64,000 nt of DNA from Verrucomicrobiota bacterium (GTDB lineage Bacteria > Verrucomicrobiota > Verrucomicrobiia > Verrucomicrobiales > DEV007). Below the pieces are notes generated by a model, which was given only the letters and a program-made list of their open reading frames with translations, made no database searches and was not told the origin of the DNA. Positions 1 through 6,828 of this stretch are shown here, piece by piece. The stretch covers positions 1 through 64,000 of the forward strand of contig JAHDID010000002.1 of NCBI GenBank assembly GCA_020630975.1. The letters are read 5' to 3'. Positions within the stretch are counted from its first letter, which is position 1. Each line of letters starts with the position of its first letter. The translations under genes were made by a program, and so were the position numbers.

Positions 1-163
1 GGGGTGTCTGCACCTCACCTCCATAACAACCAATATCGGAATAGCCCATATCGTCCACCAGGACTACGATGATGTTTGGCGAACGCTCAGTTGCCCGAGA
101 CAAGTCCACTAAAACTGCCACCATGATTAGGGCTATGATTCGGTAAAAGCGGGGCGACTGCAT
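1..163 (-). CDS. Sulfatase, N-terminal part (runs off the left edge)
   Basis: Only the first 54 codons are in the window. Reading the minus strand from the ATG at 163 gives a short charged start, a hydrophobic stretch ending in a probable signal-peptide region, and then the beginning of an alkaline-phosphatase-fold sulfatase: SPNIIVVLVDDMGYSDIG. The paired aspartates of VDDMG are the conserved metal ligands of this family. Such enzymes hydrolyse sulfate esters, usually on polysaccharides, and are exported. The FGly cysteine motif lies outside the window, so activity cannot be judged. The gene is divergent from everything to its right. Family assignment is firm; substrate is unknown. Confidence 0.85.
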   Translation of the reverse strand, partial: MQSPRFYRIIALIMVAVLVDLSRATERSPNIIVVLVDDMGYSDIGCYGGEVQTP

Positions 164-174
164 CTGATTTGCTA

Positions 175-266
175 AAAAACTGGTGCTAACTGCGCCGAGC
201 ATCAAGAAGATATGCTCTACCAATGCAAAAATTGCATCAGTTATCGTCATGAGCCGACTGGAGTCC
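175..266. repeat. Imperfect direct repeat, copy A (copy B at 1247-1340)
   Basis: This spacer segment matches 1247-1340 in the same orientation. Shared anchors are GGTGCTAA at 182 (1255 in copy B), a 13-nt dyad at 224-236 (1298-1310) and CCGACTGGAGTCC at 254 (1328). The distances between anchors differ by one base. The dyad is TGCAA-AAA-TTGCA here and TGTGA-AAA-TCACA in copy B, so both arms changed together. The two copies bracket the HNH nuclease module at 410-1052. The rest of 164-409 shows no gene. Confidence 0.6.
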
Positions 267-409
267 TCTCTACCGCTACCCGCGAAACAAAGAAGCCTTG
301 GAGCTCATAGAAGCAGTCCACTCTGGCGTAGCCAGTTAGGCACAGAGTTGGGCAGGTCCCTTTGTTCTACGAAATATCAAGATTGAGCAGGGTTCGCTCC
401 AGCTCCCCA

Positions 410-799
410 TTAAAAGCTGTCACTAGCAAGCAGTAGAGACCTGTGCTCCACTCGATCGCGAGCATTGATATTGAGTACATCAATCGTTGTTCGCCCCTCT
501 GGAGTATGACCTATCAGTAGAGCTTCATCCCAGCTGAAGTGCTCGCTCCATTCCTGAGCGCGAGGATTGAATAGCACTGATAGCTTGCCGCCCACGGGGT
601 CATAGCCAGCAATGTTTGGGCCTTTCGCAGCATTGCATTGGGCGCACGACCAGCAAAGGTTGTCGAGGGTAGTTGGTCCATGATGCTTCTGCGCACGGAT
701 ATGATCCATCTCGTGCGGCAATACAGTGCTTCGCTGAGAGATGCAACAGTACTCACAACGATCATCTGCACGATCTCGGACTCTATCTCTCAGCGCCAT
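410..799 (-). CDS. HNH endonuclease
   Basis: This 129-residue protein has a compact HNH (beta-beta-alpha-metal) nuclease fold. In order it shows CEYC, then HEMDHI (the first catalytic His and the metal-binding DH), then LCWSCAQCNAAKG, which carries the central Asn and the second CxxC zinc knuckle. The start at 799 is chosen because it lies one base after the stop of the upstream small gene (TAA-T-ATG). A longer start at 844 would overlap that gene. The tight spacing implies translational coupling, so the nuclease and the helical protein upstream were probably selected as a unit. The C-terminal 50 residues are not recognised. Small stand-alone HNH proteins of this type are common in cyanobacteria and PVC bacteria and their targets are unknown. 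It could be a defence or mobile-element nuclease. Confidence 0.8.
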   Translation of the reverse strand: MALRDRVRDRADDRCEYCCISQRSTVLPHEMDHIRAQKHHGPTTLDNLCWSCAQCNAAKGPNIAGYDPVGGKLSVLFNPRAQEWSEHFSWDEALLIGHTPEGRTTIDVLNINARDRVEHRSLLLASDSF

Positions 800-800
800 A

Positions 801-1052
801 TTATCTCTGTAGAGATAGTCGCGCCTTTGCTTGGAGTAGATCAATCAATTGACCGACTTGCAGATAATTTTTGAGCGATGCAGCCTGCTCCCCCGATATT
901 TCGTCGCGGTTTTTCGCGCTCAGCAGTGATCTGATCTGCTCCTTAGCTTCATCCGAAAAACCGAGATCTAAAATCGCTCTAGCAGCAGCTTCGGTCAATC
1001 CACCCTCTTTCGAGTTGAGCACGTCTTCCAAAATCTCTGCTTCAGTTAGCAT
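801..1052 (-). CDS. Small helical protein coupled to the HNH nuclease
   Basis: This 83-residue protein has no cysteine or histidine and is predicted by eye to be almost entirely helical. The N-terminal half reads like a short helix-turn-helix pair (LTEAAARAILDLGFSDEAKE). The C-terminal half contains the block YLQVGQLIDLLQAKARLSL, which I have seen in small proteins placed before HNH genes in other bacteria (recalled, not searched). Its stop codon is one base from the nuclease start. By position it could be an accessory, immunity or regulatory partner, but nothing in the sequence fixes a biochemical role. The start is the first ATG after an upstream region without coding signal. Confidence 0.6.
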   Translation of the reverse strand: MLTEAEILEDVLNSKEGGLTEAAARAILDLGFSDEAKEQIRSLLSAKNRDEISGEQAASLKNYLQVGQLIDLLQAKARLSLQR

Positions 1053-1246
1053 GGTTTCAAAATAGCTCTCAAATGGGTGAACCGCAACCTATCCGGAATA
1101 GGCTTGTGCTTCATTGGGCAGAACTACAGCTGTAAGGTGATGATGTGAATATGAAAGCCCTGCCCCCCTATCCCTGATCCGTGATATGATCGGAGCACGG
1201 GAGGATGATTTCGTTCACCTTCAAGCCAAGAGCAGCTCCGCTTGAT

Positions 1247-1340
1247 AGAAAACCGGTGCTAAGTTTGCCTTAGCTTAGGCATTTACGCCCTTCGATTTGT
1301 GAAAATCACACCAGTTTTCGACATGATCCGACTGGAGTCC
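1247..1340. repeat. Imperfect direct repeat, copy B, in the PSD1 leader
   Basis: This is the second copy of the repeat described at 175-266, ending 35 bases before the PSD1 start codon. It carries the dyad TGTGA-AAA-TCACA at 1298-1310 and the CCGACTGGAGTCC block at 1328-1340. The remainder of the 323-base gap 1053-1375 holds no gene that I can see. It must contain the promoters of the small helical gene and of PSD1, but no convincing -35/-10 pair stands out. Confidence 0.55.
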
Positions 1341-1375
1341 CATCAGCTACTGCTCTATCGTAATCTTAAACTGTT

Positions 1376-4300
1376 ATGAGAAAGTCTGTCACCATACTCG
1401 GTTTTCTAGCAGCGCTGTTTGCCATAGCCAATGCTGCAGACTACTCAGCCGAGCAGCTCGACTTCTTTGAGCGCAAGATACGCCCTGTGCTCGCAGAGAA
1501 CTGCTACGAATGCCACAGCGCCACCGGCAAAAAACTAAAAGGCGGCCTGCAGCTCGACCACCGCGATCACATGCTAGACGGTGGAGATACCGATGTGGCG
1601 ATCGTGCCGGGCGATCCCGCGGCCTCGCTGCTGATCGAGACCATCGCCTACGACTCGCCAGATCTGGAGATGCCACCCTCTGGCCCGCTTCCTGATGAAG
1701 TGGTCGAGGACTTTCGCAAATGGATAGCCGACGGAGCCGCCTGGCCAGATGAGGAGCTGCCTATCCGCGGCGGCGGCCAACCAAAGAAAGAGGTATTCGA
1801 CCTACAGGGCCGCTACCAGGAACACTGGAGCTGGCGGCCGATCGAGAAGCCCGCTGTGCCGACAGTGAATAGGGTACAGTCAGTTGTAGATTCGACTTCA
1901 GTCGAATTCGTCGAGCTAAGCCAGAGCACTAAGGCAGATAATTCGGCTAAAGCCGAATCTACGTCGCCGATCGATGCCTTTATCCAAGCAAAAGTCGCAG
2001 CCGCAGGCCTCACCTCCGCTAAACCCGCCGACAAACGAACCCTCGCTCGCCGCGCTTACTTCGACCTGATCGGTCTACCGCCTAGCGTAGAGCAGCTCGA
2101 TGCCTTTCTAGCCGATGAATCGCCACAGGCCTACCAGACCCTCATCGATGAGCTGCTGGCCTCGCCCCACTTTGGCGAAAAATGGGCACGCCACTGGATG
2201 GACCTGATGCGCTATGCCGAGACCTACGGTCACGAGTTCGACTACCCGATCGCCTACGCCCACGAGTATCGCGACTACCTGATCCGCGCTTTCAATAGCG
2301 ACCTACCCTACGACCAATTCCTAACCGAACACGTCGCTGGCGACCTGATCACTGAGCCTCGCCGCAATCCCGAGGAGGACTACAATGAATCCATACTCGG
2401 CACCGGCTTCTGGTATTTCAACGATGCCACCCATGCGCCTACCGATGTGCTCGCCAATGAGTCCGACCACATGGACACGCAGATCGATGTGTTCGGCAAA
2501 GCCTTCCTCGGCCTGACGATCTCCTGCGCCCGCTGTCACGACCATAAGTTCGACGCCATATCGACAGCAGACTACTACGCGCTCACTACCTACCTGCACA
2601 GCAGCGCCCGTCAGGACTACCCCATGGACCCCGGCCGCGTACACGAGCAGACAGCCCAGGAGCTAAAGACAGCTCTCGCCGAGGGCGACAAAGCTCTCCG
2701 ACAGATCCCACAGCAGGTAACCGATAAGCATCGCCCTGGAGCATACTTCCTGGCAGCTGCCGAGCTGATGACGCAGCATAAAGCCGAGTCGCAGACCGGT
2801 GGCGATCCCTGGCAGGGCACACTGTATGAAGACTTCGAGTCAGGCGAGTATGGTGAAAAATGGAAACCTTCAGGAGCCGCCTTCGGTAAAGCTCCCGCCG
2901 CCGGCCCTCTCAGCGCCAGCCAAAAGCTATCTGGTCAGCGGGGCAACGGATTGGCCAATTCCTTCTTCGACGGTAGCGATCGCCACCGCGGCACACTGAC
3001 ATCGCAGCCGTTTACCATTGAGCACCCCTACATCAATTTCCTGATCGCTGGAGGCAAGCACGCTAGCCTAGGCCTGCACCTGCTGATCGATGGTCAGACA
3101 GTATCCACCACTCACGGTGAAAACTCCGACGAGATGAAGCCTGCTACGATCAATGTATCTGCCTACATCGGCAAATCGGCACAACTCAAAATCGAAGACA
3201 ACTTCCACGGCGGCTGGGGCCACATCGAGGTCGATCACATCGTCTTTTCCGACACACCGGCAGATCAGCCAAAATCACTAGCCGTACCTGCTTTCGATAA
3301 AATCACCGAGGCCGCCAAGGCGAAACACTTGGATCCCGATTTGCTCGCAGCGTGGGCAAAGACATTCTCCACGGAGCAGACCGACACCCGCCGCCACCCT
3401 CAGGCTTACCTAGCCCTACTCATGGAGAAACCTGATACCGCTAACAGCTATGCCAATATGCTGAAAGGCGAGCGCAATAATGTAGCGAAATTCCAATCCG
3501 AAAACACCAAGCTGTTCGACTTTGCCGAGTCGGCAGACGGTTGGTCGACCACTGGTTTCGCCTTTCAGCACCGCCCCAATGCTATCGGTCTAAGCCTGGA
3601 GCCGGGAGCGCCTTTCTCCACACCTGGCACTATGTCGAGTGCGCAGCTAGGTGAGCAACAAATAGGTGCGCTACGATCGCCGACTATCGAGATCTCCGAA
3701 AAACAGATTCATGTCTTAGCCAAATCCGAAAAGCTATTCGCCCGCGTGGTCATGGATAACTACCACATGGGCAAATTCCACACGCTACTCTTCAATGGCA
3801 CGGTGATGAAAAATCACGGCACAGCTGGCGAATTCCAGTGGTTCTCATTCAATAGAAATCTCGACAAATACGTCGACCACAAAGCATTCCTAGAGTTCGT
3901 CGACGAAGGCGGCGCCGTGGTCGAAGTCGCCGAAGTCTGGTCTGGCATGACCAATCCGCCCAAAGGCTATCCACACGCCATGGTCGAGGCGATGATCGGC
4001 GAGGGTGGTGCTACGCTACAAGACTCCGCTACCAATCTAGACAGCGCTTGGGATAAAGCATGGCAAGCCATCCGCACGGGTAAAGGTACCCGCAGCCAGG
4101 CCGAGCTACTCAATTGGCTTGTGGCAAATGATCTACTCTCTATCGAGAAGCTATCGGCACCAGTCGCCACCGTGCTAGCCGACGCCCACGCAAAGCAGGC
4201 GAAGCTACCCCGCCCCCGCTACGCGATCGCCATGGCCGAGGGCACACCCGAGGGTGGCCATGTGTATGTACGCGGTAGTTACCGGAAGCTGGGTGAGCCA

Positions 4301-5218
4301 GTCGCCATGCGCAATCTCACCGCTCTGGGTGGCAAAGGAGGCGATCGCCTCGAGCTATCTCAGCAGCTCACCAGTCGGGAGAATCCACTAGTCGCGCGTG
4401 TCATAACCAACCGCGTCTGGCACCATCTATTCGGTCGAGGCATCGTGCCGACTACCGACGACTTTGGCCCGATGGGTAAGACACCCAGCCACCCTGAGCT
4501 ACTCGACTGGTTGGCCGCCGACTTCGCCGACAATGGCTGGAGCGTGAAACAATTGATCCGCAGCATCATGCTATCGGATACCTACCGCCAGTCGAGCCAA
4601 CTGAATGCCGCCAACGATCCAGAGATGGTAGCAAACATCGACCCCGATAATGTCCTACTACACAAAATGCCCGTCCGCCGTCTCCAGGCCGAGGCGATCC
4701 GCGACTCGGTGCTATCGGTATCTGGTCGCCTCGACTCGAAGCTATTCGGCCCCAGTATCGCTACCCACCGCACTGCCTATATGACTGGTCGTGGTGGTAG
4801 AGGCAGCGGCCCGCTGGATGGTGCCGGTCGGCGTAGCATCTACGGAGCGGTGTATCGAAACTTCCTGTCACCATTCATGCTCACCTTCGATCAGCCCAGT
4901 CCATTTGGCCCCAAAGGACGCCGCTCGGTGTCGAATGTACCAGCGCAGTCACTGGTCTTGATGAATGATCCATTCGTGATCGAGCAAGCCAAGCTGTGGG
5001 CCAAGAATACCACCGCCAAAGGCTATACCGATCCCGAGACCCGCATCCGCGATATGTACGAGGTCGCACTCGGAGCCGAACCATCGACTGACCGCGTCGC
5101 TGCGCTCGCCGGATTTCTCGACACCCAGGCCGAGACCTACGGCACGGTCGATGATCGAGCCTGGACCGATCTAGCCCACGTGCTGATCAATATGAAAGAC
5201 TTTATTTATTTGAGATAA
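1376..5218 (+). CDS. PSC1/PSD1/DUF1549-DUF1553 domain protein
   Basis: This exported protein of 1280 residues begins with a signal peptide (about 1-21). The PSC1 c-type cytochrome-like domain follows, with the haem motif CYECH at residues 43-47. A PSD1 (DUF1549) domain starts near residue 197 at SPIDAFIQAKVAAAG and contains a second CxxCH (SCARCHDHKFD). A long beta-rich insert follows, and a C-terminal DUF1553 domain covers the last 300 residues or so, including NRVWHHLFGRGIV. Such proteins are a signature of Verrucomicrobia and Planctomycetes and are usually followed, as here, by a DUF1501 partner. The pair is linked to polysaccharide breakdown, but the reaction is not established. Residues of about 165-196 are unusual: they are encoded by a REP-like inverted pair inserted without breaking the frame. 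Confidence 0.92.
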   Translation: MRKSVTILGFLAALFAIANAADYSAEQLDFFERKIRPVLAENCYECHSATGKKLKGGLQLDHRDHMLDGGDTDVAIVPGDPAASLLIETIAYDSPDLEMPPSGPLPDEVVEDFRKWIADGAAWPDEELPIRGGGQPKKEVFDLQGRYQEHWSWRPIEKPAVPTVNRVQSVVDSTSVEFVELSQSTKADNSAKAESTSPIDAFIQAKVAAAGLTSAKPADKRTLARRAYFDLIGLPPSVEQLDAFLADESPQAYQTLIDELLASPHFGEKWARHWMDLMRYAETYGHEFDYPIAYAHEYRDYLIRAFNSDLPYDQFLTEHVAGDLITEPRRNPEEDYNESILGTGFWYFNDATHAPTDVLANESDHMDTQIDVFGKAFLGLTISCARCHDHKFDAISTADYYALTTYLHSSARQDYPMDPGRVHEQTAQELKTALAEGDKALRQIPQQVTDKHRPGAYFLAAAELMTQHKAESQTGGDPWQGTLYEDFESGEYGEKWKPSGAAFGKAPAAGPLSASQKLSGQRGNGLANSFFDGSDRHRGTLTSQPFTIEHPYINFLIAGGKHASLGLHLLIDGQTVSTTHGENSDEMKPATINVSAYIGKSAQLKIEDNFHGGWGHIEVDHIVFSDTPADQPKSLAVPAFDKITEAAKAKHLDPDLLAAWAKTFSTEQTDTRRHPQAYLALLMEKPDTANSYANMLKGERNNVAKFQSENTKLFDFAESADGWSTTGFAFQHRPNAIGLSLEPGAPFSTPGTMSSAQLGEQQIGALRSPTIEISEKQIHVLAKSEKLFARVVMDNYHMGKFHTLLFNGTVMKNHGTAGEFQWFSFNRNLDKYVDHKAFLEFVDEGGAVVEVAEVWSGMTNPPKGYPHAMVEAMIGEGGATLQDSATNLDSAWDKAWQAIRTGKGTRSQAELLNWLVANDLLSIEKLSAPVATVLADAHAKQAKLPRPRYAIAMAEGTPEGGHVYVRGSYRKLGEPVAMRNLTALGGKGGDRLELSQQLTSRENPLVARVITNRVWHHLFGRGIVPTTDDFGPMGKTPSHPELLDWLAADFADNGWSVKQLIRSIMLSDTYRQSSQLNAANDPEMVANIDPDNVLLHKMPVRRLQAEAIRDSVLSVSGRLDSKLFGPSIATHRTAYMTGRGGRGSGPLDGAGRRSIYGAVYRNFLSPFMLTFDQPSPFGPKGRRSVSNVPAQSLVLMNDPFVIEQAKLWAKNTTAKGYTDPETRIRDMYEVALGAEPSTDRVAALAGFLDTQAETYGTVDDRAWTDLAHVLINMKDFIYLR
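1886..1962. repeat. Inverted pair of GTAG-headed REP-like elements inside a coding sequence
   Basis: Two 23-nt elements face each other at 1886-1908 (plus strand) and 1940-1962 (minus strand). Each begins with GTAGA. The first is followed by the stem TTCGACT/AGTCGAA and the second by TTCGGCT/AGCCGAA, so both keep a seven-base stem while differing in sequence. A GTAG or GGAG head before a hairpin is the hallmark of REP elements mobilised by RAYT (TnpA_REP) proteins. Just upstream, at 1868-1878, lies AATAGGGTACA, the core of another repeat in this window. The pair lies between the linker and the PSD1 domain and is translated. Confidence 0.7.
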
Positions 5219-5394: not shown

Positions 5395-6828
5395 ATGCAC
5401 TGCAACAACTTCCAATCCGCACCCACCTCGCGCCGAGATATGCTGCGCCGCTGCTCGATGGGCTTTGGCGGTATCGCCATGTCGGCTTTGGCTAGCCAGC
5501 AGCCAGCTTTGGCGGGCATCAAGAGTCCACTAGCACCAAAGGCACCGCACTTCTCCGCCAAGGCAAAGAATGTGATCTTTCTCTACATGGATGGCGGCCC
5601 CTCGCATGTCGACACATTCGACTACAAGCCGATGCTGGAAAAGTATCACGGCGAGGATCCTCGCACTGCGATCGGCGAGCTAGCTCCGACTCAGTTCGAC
5701 AATATAGGTAAAGTTTTCAAAAGTCAGTGGGACTTCAAACAGCGCGGCGACTCGGGGCACTGGGTGTCTGATCTCTTTCCCCACATCGCGGAGAAAGAAG
5801 TGATCGACGAGATCGCTATGATCAAGTCGATGACCTCGAAATTCCCCGAGCACACCGCCGCTAATTACTTTCTACATTCCGGTAGTGGTTTCCAGGGGCG
5901 ACCGAGTATGGGCGCATGGTTTGGCTACGGTCTCGGTACGGAAAATCAAAACCTACCCGGATTCGTCGTGCTAAACGGCGGCCTAATCCCTCCCGGTGGG
6001 CTCGATTGCTTCGGCTCTGGCTTCCTCCCTGCGGCCTATCAGGGGTCGATTTTTTTGCCACAAGATCAGCCGATAGCCAATATCAAGCCCCTCGAGCAAG
6101 AGACCAAGCTGCAGACGAACAAGCTCGACCTACTGCGCCAACTAGACGGCGAATCGCTATCGAAAGGCTACGACCCGCAGGTCGAGGCAGCGATCCAGAA
6201 CTACGAGACCGCTTTCAAGATGCAGACAGCCGTGCCCGACCTGATGGACCTGAAAGGCGAGCCCGACTCGGTGAAAAAGATGTATGGCCTAGATGATGAA
6301 TTCGAGGGCACCAAGACCTTTGGCCTGCAATGCCTGCTAGCACGTCGCTTAGTCGAGCGCGGAGTCCGCTTCATCGAGCTGACCTGCCCCAAGGTAGGTG
6401 GCGATCGCTGGGATCAGCATGGCAATCTAGTCGAAGGTCACAACAACAACTGCAAAACCGTCGATCAGCCGATCGCTGCTCTGATCAAAGACCTGAAGCG
6501 CTCAGGCCTACTCGAGTCGACGCTAGTCGTCTGGGGTGGCGAGTTTGGCCGCACACCATTTGCCCAGGGCAGCAATGGCCGCGACCACAATCCGTGGGGC
6601 TTCACCATGTGGATGGCCGGTGGCGGTGTGAAGGGTGGAGCCAGCGTCGGCCAGACCGACGACTTTGGCTACAAAGCTGTGCAAGACCGCTGGGAGATGC
6701 ACGATCTCCACGCCACCATGCTTCACCTGCTAGGCGTCGATCACGAGAAAAGCACCTTCCGCTTCAGTGGCAGAGACATGCGCCTGACCGATGTGCATGG
6801 GCACATCATGCATCAGATATTGGCCTGA
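5395..6828 (+). CDS. DUF1501 family exported protein
   Basis: This 477-residue protein has a twin-arginine signal at its start (SRRDMLRRC followed by a hydrophobic stretch and AxA near residue 37), so it is probably exported folded. The body matches the DUF1501 family, which has an alkaline-phosphatase/sulfatase-like fold. It includes FLYMDGGPSHVDTFDYKP near the N-terminus, GDRWDQHGN in the middle, and VVWGGEFGRTPFAQGS and GRDHNPWGF towards the C-terminus. The standard cysteine used by formylglycine sulfatases is absent, as is normal in this family. It is the usual downstream partner of PSD1 proteins and is probably co-expressed with the gene 176 bases upstream. Its substrate is unknown. Confidence 0.92.
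   Translation: MHCNNFQSAPTSRRDMLRRCSMGFGGIAMSALASQQPALAGIKSPLAPKAPHFSAKAKNVIFLYMDGGPSHVDTFDYKPMLEKYHGEDPRTAIGELAPTQFDNIGKVFKSQWDFKQRGDSGHWVSDLFPHIAEKEVIDEIAMIKSMTSKFPEHTAANYFLHSGSGFQGRPSMGAWFGYGLGTENQNLPGFVVLNGGLIPPGGLDCFGSGFLPAAYQGSIFLPQDQPIANIKPLEQETKLQTNKLDLLRQLDGESLSKGYDPQVEAAIQNYETAFKMQTAVPDLMDLKGEPDSVKKMYGLDDEFEGTKTFGLQCLLARRLVERGVRFIELTCPKVGGDRWDQHGNLVEGHNNNCKTVDQPIAALIKDLKRSGLLESTLVVWGGEFGRTPFAQGSNGRDHNPWGFTMWMAGGGVKGGASVGQTDDFGYKAVQDRWEMHDLHATMLHLLGVDHEKSTFRFSGRDMRLTDVHGHIMHQILA

Follow-up and report, generated by a model that had tools for sequence, protein, structure and literature searches.

The window analysed here is a stretch of 64,000 nucleotides of a Verrucomicrobiota genome, and its first 7 kb carry two copies of a repeat, named A and B, set among the following genes and features:

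1..163, minus strand: start (5′ end) of a sulfatase gene, the remainder of which, and after it an AraC gene, are on contig C104 (contig overlap, ORFs, Pfam Sulfatase and HTH_18)
169..266, plus strand: repeat copy A, putative regulatory region upstream of the leftward sulfatase-AraC operon (alignment with B; match of model R1)
220..266, plus strand: core of copy A, predicted AraC-type binding site (model R1)
410..799, minus strand: HNH endonuclease-like protein, second gene of the module (PF01844, E 1.3e-8)
801..1052, minus strand: small protein of 83 aa, first gene of the module (ORF)
1242..1340, plus strand: repeat copy B, putative regulatory region upstream of PSD1 (alignment with A, genome BLAST)
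1295..1340, plus strand: core of copy B, predicted AraC-type binding site (model R1)
1361..1366, plus strand: candidate -10 hexamer TAATCT (in TATCG-TAATCT, 1356-1366), aligned with TTTCG-TATAAT of 18 relatives
1376..5218, plus strand: PSCyt1-PSCyt2-PSD1 protein, the predicted target gene of B (Pfam; its orthologs in relatives adjoin AraC)
5395..6828, plus strand: DUF1501 protein (PF07394, E 1.4e-145)

As an earlier note on this DNA had described, A and B flank a two-gene HNH module. Its reading frames, both on the minus strand, are the HNH gene and, ahead of it, that of the small protein, for which no Pfam match was found. On the other side of B, the DUF1501 gene is presumably in an operon with PSD1. 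Within the PSD1 frame, between the PSCyt1 and PSCyt2 domains, an inverted repeat (GTAGATTCGACTTCAGTCGAATT / AATTCGGCTAAAGCCGAATCTAC, 1886-1962) looks like a REP-type insertion retained in frame.

To the left, contig C104 ends in 55 bases identical to those with which the window begins, an overlap of k-mer size, and C104 carries the remainder of the sulfatase and then the AraC gene. From this overlap and from the protein that continues across it we infer that the two contigs join. The regulator (C104:26341-27210; L060, 1474-2346) matches HTH_18 with E 1.4e-24 and HTH_AraC with E 3.6e-17 in Pfam, and is the ortholog, 66% identical, of the AraC protein of related genomes. The gene order would thus be AraC <- sulfatase <- A [HNH module] B -> PSD1 -> DUF1501.

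The direct repeats are real. In a global alignment A and B are identical at 72 of 97 aligned positions, with 25 mismatches and three single-base gaps; their local alignment score of 54 compares with at most 30 in 1000 block shuffles, and a BLAST search of the whole genome with B as query recovers A with E 2.7e-5. Their exact tail, the 13-mer CCGACTGGAGTCC, occurs at just these two places in the 7.1-Mb genome. The right part of each copy holds an element of about 45-50 nt, described by R1, a sequence-only model built from 14 sites (A, B, a third copy C and eleven PSD1 sites of the genus); its matches in A (220-270, E 1.2e-8) and B (E 9e-8) are therefore matches to members of the training set. 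Directly after A, a short open frame (267-340) that ends in LYRYPRNKEALELIEAVHSGVAS and a stop is possibly the tail or remnant of a lost gene.

A search with a 63-nt query in 96 genomes by a BLAST-type method yielded, outside the own genome, just chance matches in coding DNA, the query being too short and diverged for such a method, and a profile was used instead; an exact pattern scan of genome contigs gave three matches, all of them unrelated. Copy C, found by whole-genome search (C123:175-228), lies 30 nt upstream of an operon for a beta-propeller-like protein and a sulfatase, on a contig with no HNH gene. The start of that contig, upstream of C (L009:1-115), is a long imperfect inverted repeat, probably of REP-like type and the cause of the break in the assembly; the same contig also carries (L057:1190-4192) a single reading frame of 1000 aa with two tandem sulfatase domains. 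A fourth copy, D, outside the training set, was matched by R1 with E 5.6e-6 upstream of another sulfatase, again at a locus with no HNH gene.

Beyond this genome, 18 of 33 congeners have the element, as do three genomes from other genera, and it stands there upstream of PSD1 or sulfatase genes. Within the genus, R1 matches 18 sites at PSD1 genes, of which eleven had served for training, and one at a sulfatase gene; in the other genera of the family, it matches two sites in G042, one in G044 and one in G110. Thirteen sites with E < 1e-4 are outside the training set, upstream of PSD1 in G006, G030, G024, G013, G008, G011, G022, G042 (two), G044 and G110, and upstream of sulfatases in the case of D and of a further site in G006. 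All matches below this threshold whose flanks were read lie upstream of a PSD1 or a sulfatase gene; in the PSD1 orthologs of the genus the element keeps the same position and no HNH gene is present, and indeed no nuclease gene was seen beside the element at C, at D or at any congener or other-genus locus inspected. The earlier note had reasoned that a repeat found upstream of many sulfatase or PSD1 genes, free of any nuclease module, would be the leader of a regulon; the search of the genome and its relatives places it exactly so. An integron attC-like nature of the repeats was also considered and discarded, the element being located upstream of genes in conserved AraC-PSD1 loci.

Across 18 relatives the conserved blocks follow a fixed order, namely GAAAATCGTATCA, TGTC, GATTTGT, TCGAC and, after about 18 nt, TTTCGTAT, with a TATAAT-like hexamer near the ATG. 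This arrangement fits a bipartite activator site immediately followed by a promoter of sigma-70 type, and if that reading is true, transcription in the standard AraC-PSD1 locus would start a few nucleotides downstream of TTTCGTATAAT. In the window, the candidate -10 hexamer downstream of B stands 9 nt ahead of the PSD1 ATG and is not flagged by a simple sigma-70 scan. A possible sigma-54 promoter at CGGTGCTAAGTTTGC in B was set aside, as that sequence is conserved neither in C nor in the relatives.

In the relatives, the site is placed in a short divergent region, with the gene of an AraC-type regulator (HTH_18) on one side and PSD1, preceded by the conserved -10, on the other, and the distance from the site to the AraC start is 52-58 nt in nearly all of them. 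In A, model position 1 is 52 nt away from the sulfatase start codon (161-163), which corresponds to the spacing of the element to AraC in relatives, and the site is oriented away from the sulfatase as it is from AraC there. A has no recognisable -10 on its right side. Judging from the regulator-side spacing in A and the -10 of B, A seems to have retained the regulator side and B the PSD1 side, in each case the one towards the copy's own gene. The regulator-side half of A and B, taken alone, resembles the relatives weakly (E 1.6).

The site also follows the regulator gene through the genus. AraC orthologs (E < 1e-110) are present in 16 of 34 genomes, all 16 with the site; of the 18 genomes that have no intact AraC only three have the site, and each of these carries remnants of the gene: a pseudogene in G014, and the first seven codons followed by stops in G011 and G022. 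In the genus the site is thus confined to genomes that have the regulator or had it recently; an AraC-type HTH gene is adjacent, and the site is a conserved bipartite sequence upstream of the regulated promoter, all of which is expected of a divergent promoter under AraC-family control. The co-occurrence has a Fisher p of 4.5e-7, a value that ignores relatedness and serves as a guide only. The three genomes without intact AraC keep the site upstream of PSD1 and are therefore natural regulator knock-outs (L083, L084, L085).

In the whole family the AraC gene is found in 26 of 75 genomes. Seven carriers have no reported R1 match. In four of them (G055, G108, G045 and, in weak form, G048) AraC and PSD1 are divergent and a variant of the left half of the site is recognisable; the divergent arrangement recurs in other genera with variant sites. 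In genus g18, AraC homologs are present and no site was detectable. In G042, a globin-like gene, recognised by eye, lies between AraC and the single copy of the site (L126:3182-3658, contig C162). As this unrelated case illustrates, the AraC-PSD1 region tolerates insertions.

Whether one regulator serves all four sites of the genome is not certain, since A, B and C carry GACTGGA where the congeners and D have GATTTGT or near variants. At position 268, which belongs to the second helix-turn-helix, the own regulator has Q and 15 orthologs have R; that this change is linked to the GACTGGA change would be no more than a guess.

Altogether, we consider it highly probable (about 0.87) that A and B derive from a single ancestral divergent control region, composed of a promoter and the site of an AraC-family activator, which was duplicated around the insertion of the HNH module. 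In the ancestral state this region would have occurred once, with the gene of the AraC-type regulator on one side of it and the PSD1-DUF1501 operon on the other. In the own lineage, a sulfatase gene would have come to lie ahead of AraC, and the control region would have been duplicated, with the small two-gene HNH module between the copies; A, having kept the regulator side, would now drive sulfatase-AraC, and B would have retained its -10 and the side towards PSD1. The regulator would bind the site of about 45 nt just upstream of a weak promoter and activate it like class II AraC activators, within a small regulon that would include PSD1, the sulfatase-AraC operon and the further sulfatase genes at C and D. 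Most likely, it is the adjacent AraC-type regulator that binds the site and switches on the sulfatase and surface-enzyme genes, the inducer being possibly a product of a sulfated glycan.

The empty site found in relatives, with one element, no HNH gene and an intergenic region of less than 200 bp, comes close to what the earlier note had proposed as one option, namely insertion of the module with duplication of a leader region. Relative to it, the own lineage has gained the sulfatase, the HNH module and the second element. The simplest reading is that the local control region was duplicated before or during the HNH insertion; the genomes searched show no intermediate stage that would put the rearrangements in order.

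The other option of the note, a transposable cassette with the repeats as its ends or target duplication and carrying the leader along, appears quite improbable. It draws on the facts that the repeats bracket the HNH module directly, that relatives devoid of the module have a single copy, and that HNH modules of this kind occur at many different loci. Yet the element is widespread without HNH, as described above, and is not restricted to such a cassette, and the five other loci of the own genome that hold HNH paralogs have no flanking repeats of the A/B kind. The HNH homologs of the genome and the genus (L016-L020, L116-L124) are at unrelated loci without the element. These 14 loci share no common terminal sequence, their homology being in the coding part; the one pair alike beyond it represents the same locus in two related genomes. 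Hence the module does not bring the repeat along. Moreover, a duplication of about 98 bp diverged by 26% is unlike the usual target-site duplication. The position of the repeats is explained by AraC and PSD1, which leaves the cassette without support, and the nuclease genes between A and B would be a later, incidental insert.

As for the module itself, the same pair of genes, with the small-protein gene directly upstream of the HNH homolog, is found at several other loci of the own genome and the genus, and it is not tied there to a repeat of the A/B type. The HNH protein distantly resembles PtuB of Septu, the PtuB models giving a weak best E of 1e-10; a Septu system was rejected, as no PtuA-type ATPase partner stands beside the HNH gene, whose neighbours are the small protein, the sulfatase and PSD1. 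It is unlikely, though conceivable, that the left-facing, ancestrally regulator-side promoter of B now reads into the minus-strand HNH operon and places the module in the regulon. A nuclease module caught within the duplicated promoter of a glycan-sensing AraC regulator would, in that case, be controlled by this same regulator.

The dyads that the earlier note had pointed out are present as written, TGCAA-AAA-TTGCA in A and TGTGA-AAA-TCACA in B, and the perfect symmetry with different arms had been taken as a sign of selection for pairing. It could suggest that PSD1 and sulfatase genes are preceded by a structured RNA leader, similar to an attenuator or riboswitch, in which the dyad forms a hairpin, and most relatives have in addition an outer inverted repeat, AAATC...GATTT. 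Selection for pairing is not supported, however: over 23 aligned sites the arms pair at 77.3% as against 77.9% in shuffled ones, one cell only is changed on both sides, and the outer repeat has no significant covariation, so that the covarying base pairs of a cis-regulatory RNA leader are lacking. Furthermore, the dyad of copy C (TGCGA-AAA-TCACA) is mispaired, the element folds as a single strand no better than shuffles (z -0.78 to +0.26), an Rfam search of the element gave no match, and the conserved -10 of the relatives, downstream of the element and near the ATG, would leave it mostly untranscribed. Given the absence of covariation, the mispaired C and the unremarkable folding, the fact that A and B differ in both arms does not speak for RNA pairing; the hairpin was dropped, and a structured leader is extremely unlikely. 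The same symmetry could instead mark the site of a regulator other than the adjacent AraC, such as one of LacI or GntR type, to which the divergence of the right half of A, B and C from the relatives would also be congenial. But only A and B have the 13-nt dyad, its symmetric form being absent in relatives, the asymmetric bipartite site tracks the presence of AraC, and the weakest PSD1 site of the genus, that of G014, adjoins a broken AraC; another regulator is thus very improbable.

The predicted control by an adjacent AraC-type activator is of a known kind. Like the systems of the AraC-araBAD, MelR, XylR and RhaS type, it has a regulator with an HTH_18/HTH_AraC domain and a divergent gene order and, as in AraC/XylS-family systems generally, a predicted bipartite site of about 40 bp just upstream of a weak promoter and a small regulon of scattered operons. 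Unlike them, its targets are PSCyt/PSD1-DUF1501 and sulfatase genes, and its divergent region, known from sequence, is split here into two copies by a sulfatase and an HNH module. It is in these target genes and in the local duplication that an AraC-family operator and promoter is new, and among the papers searched no report of the AraC-PSD1-sulfatase regulon was found.

These genomes commonly hold PSCyt/PSD1 and DUF1501 proteins, whose annotation is "unknown function". The regulator, its site and the sulfatase regulon would offer a handle on their role, probably in the use of sulfated glycans, and the model of the site can be used for finding further targets. In addition, the losses of AraC in G014, G011 and G022, together with the clade-specific change in the right half-site, make the co-evolution of site and regulator testable.
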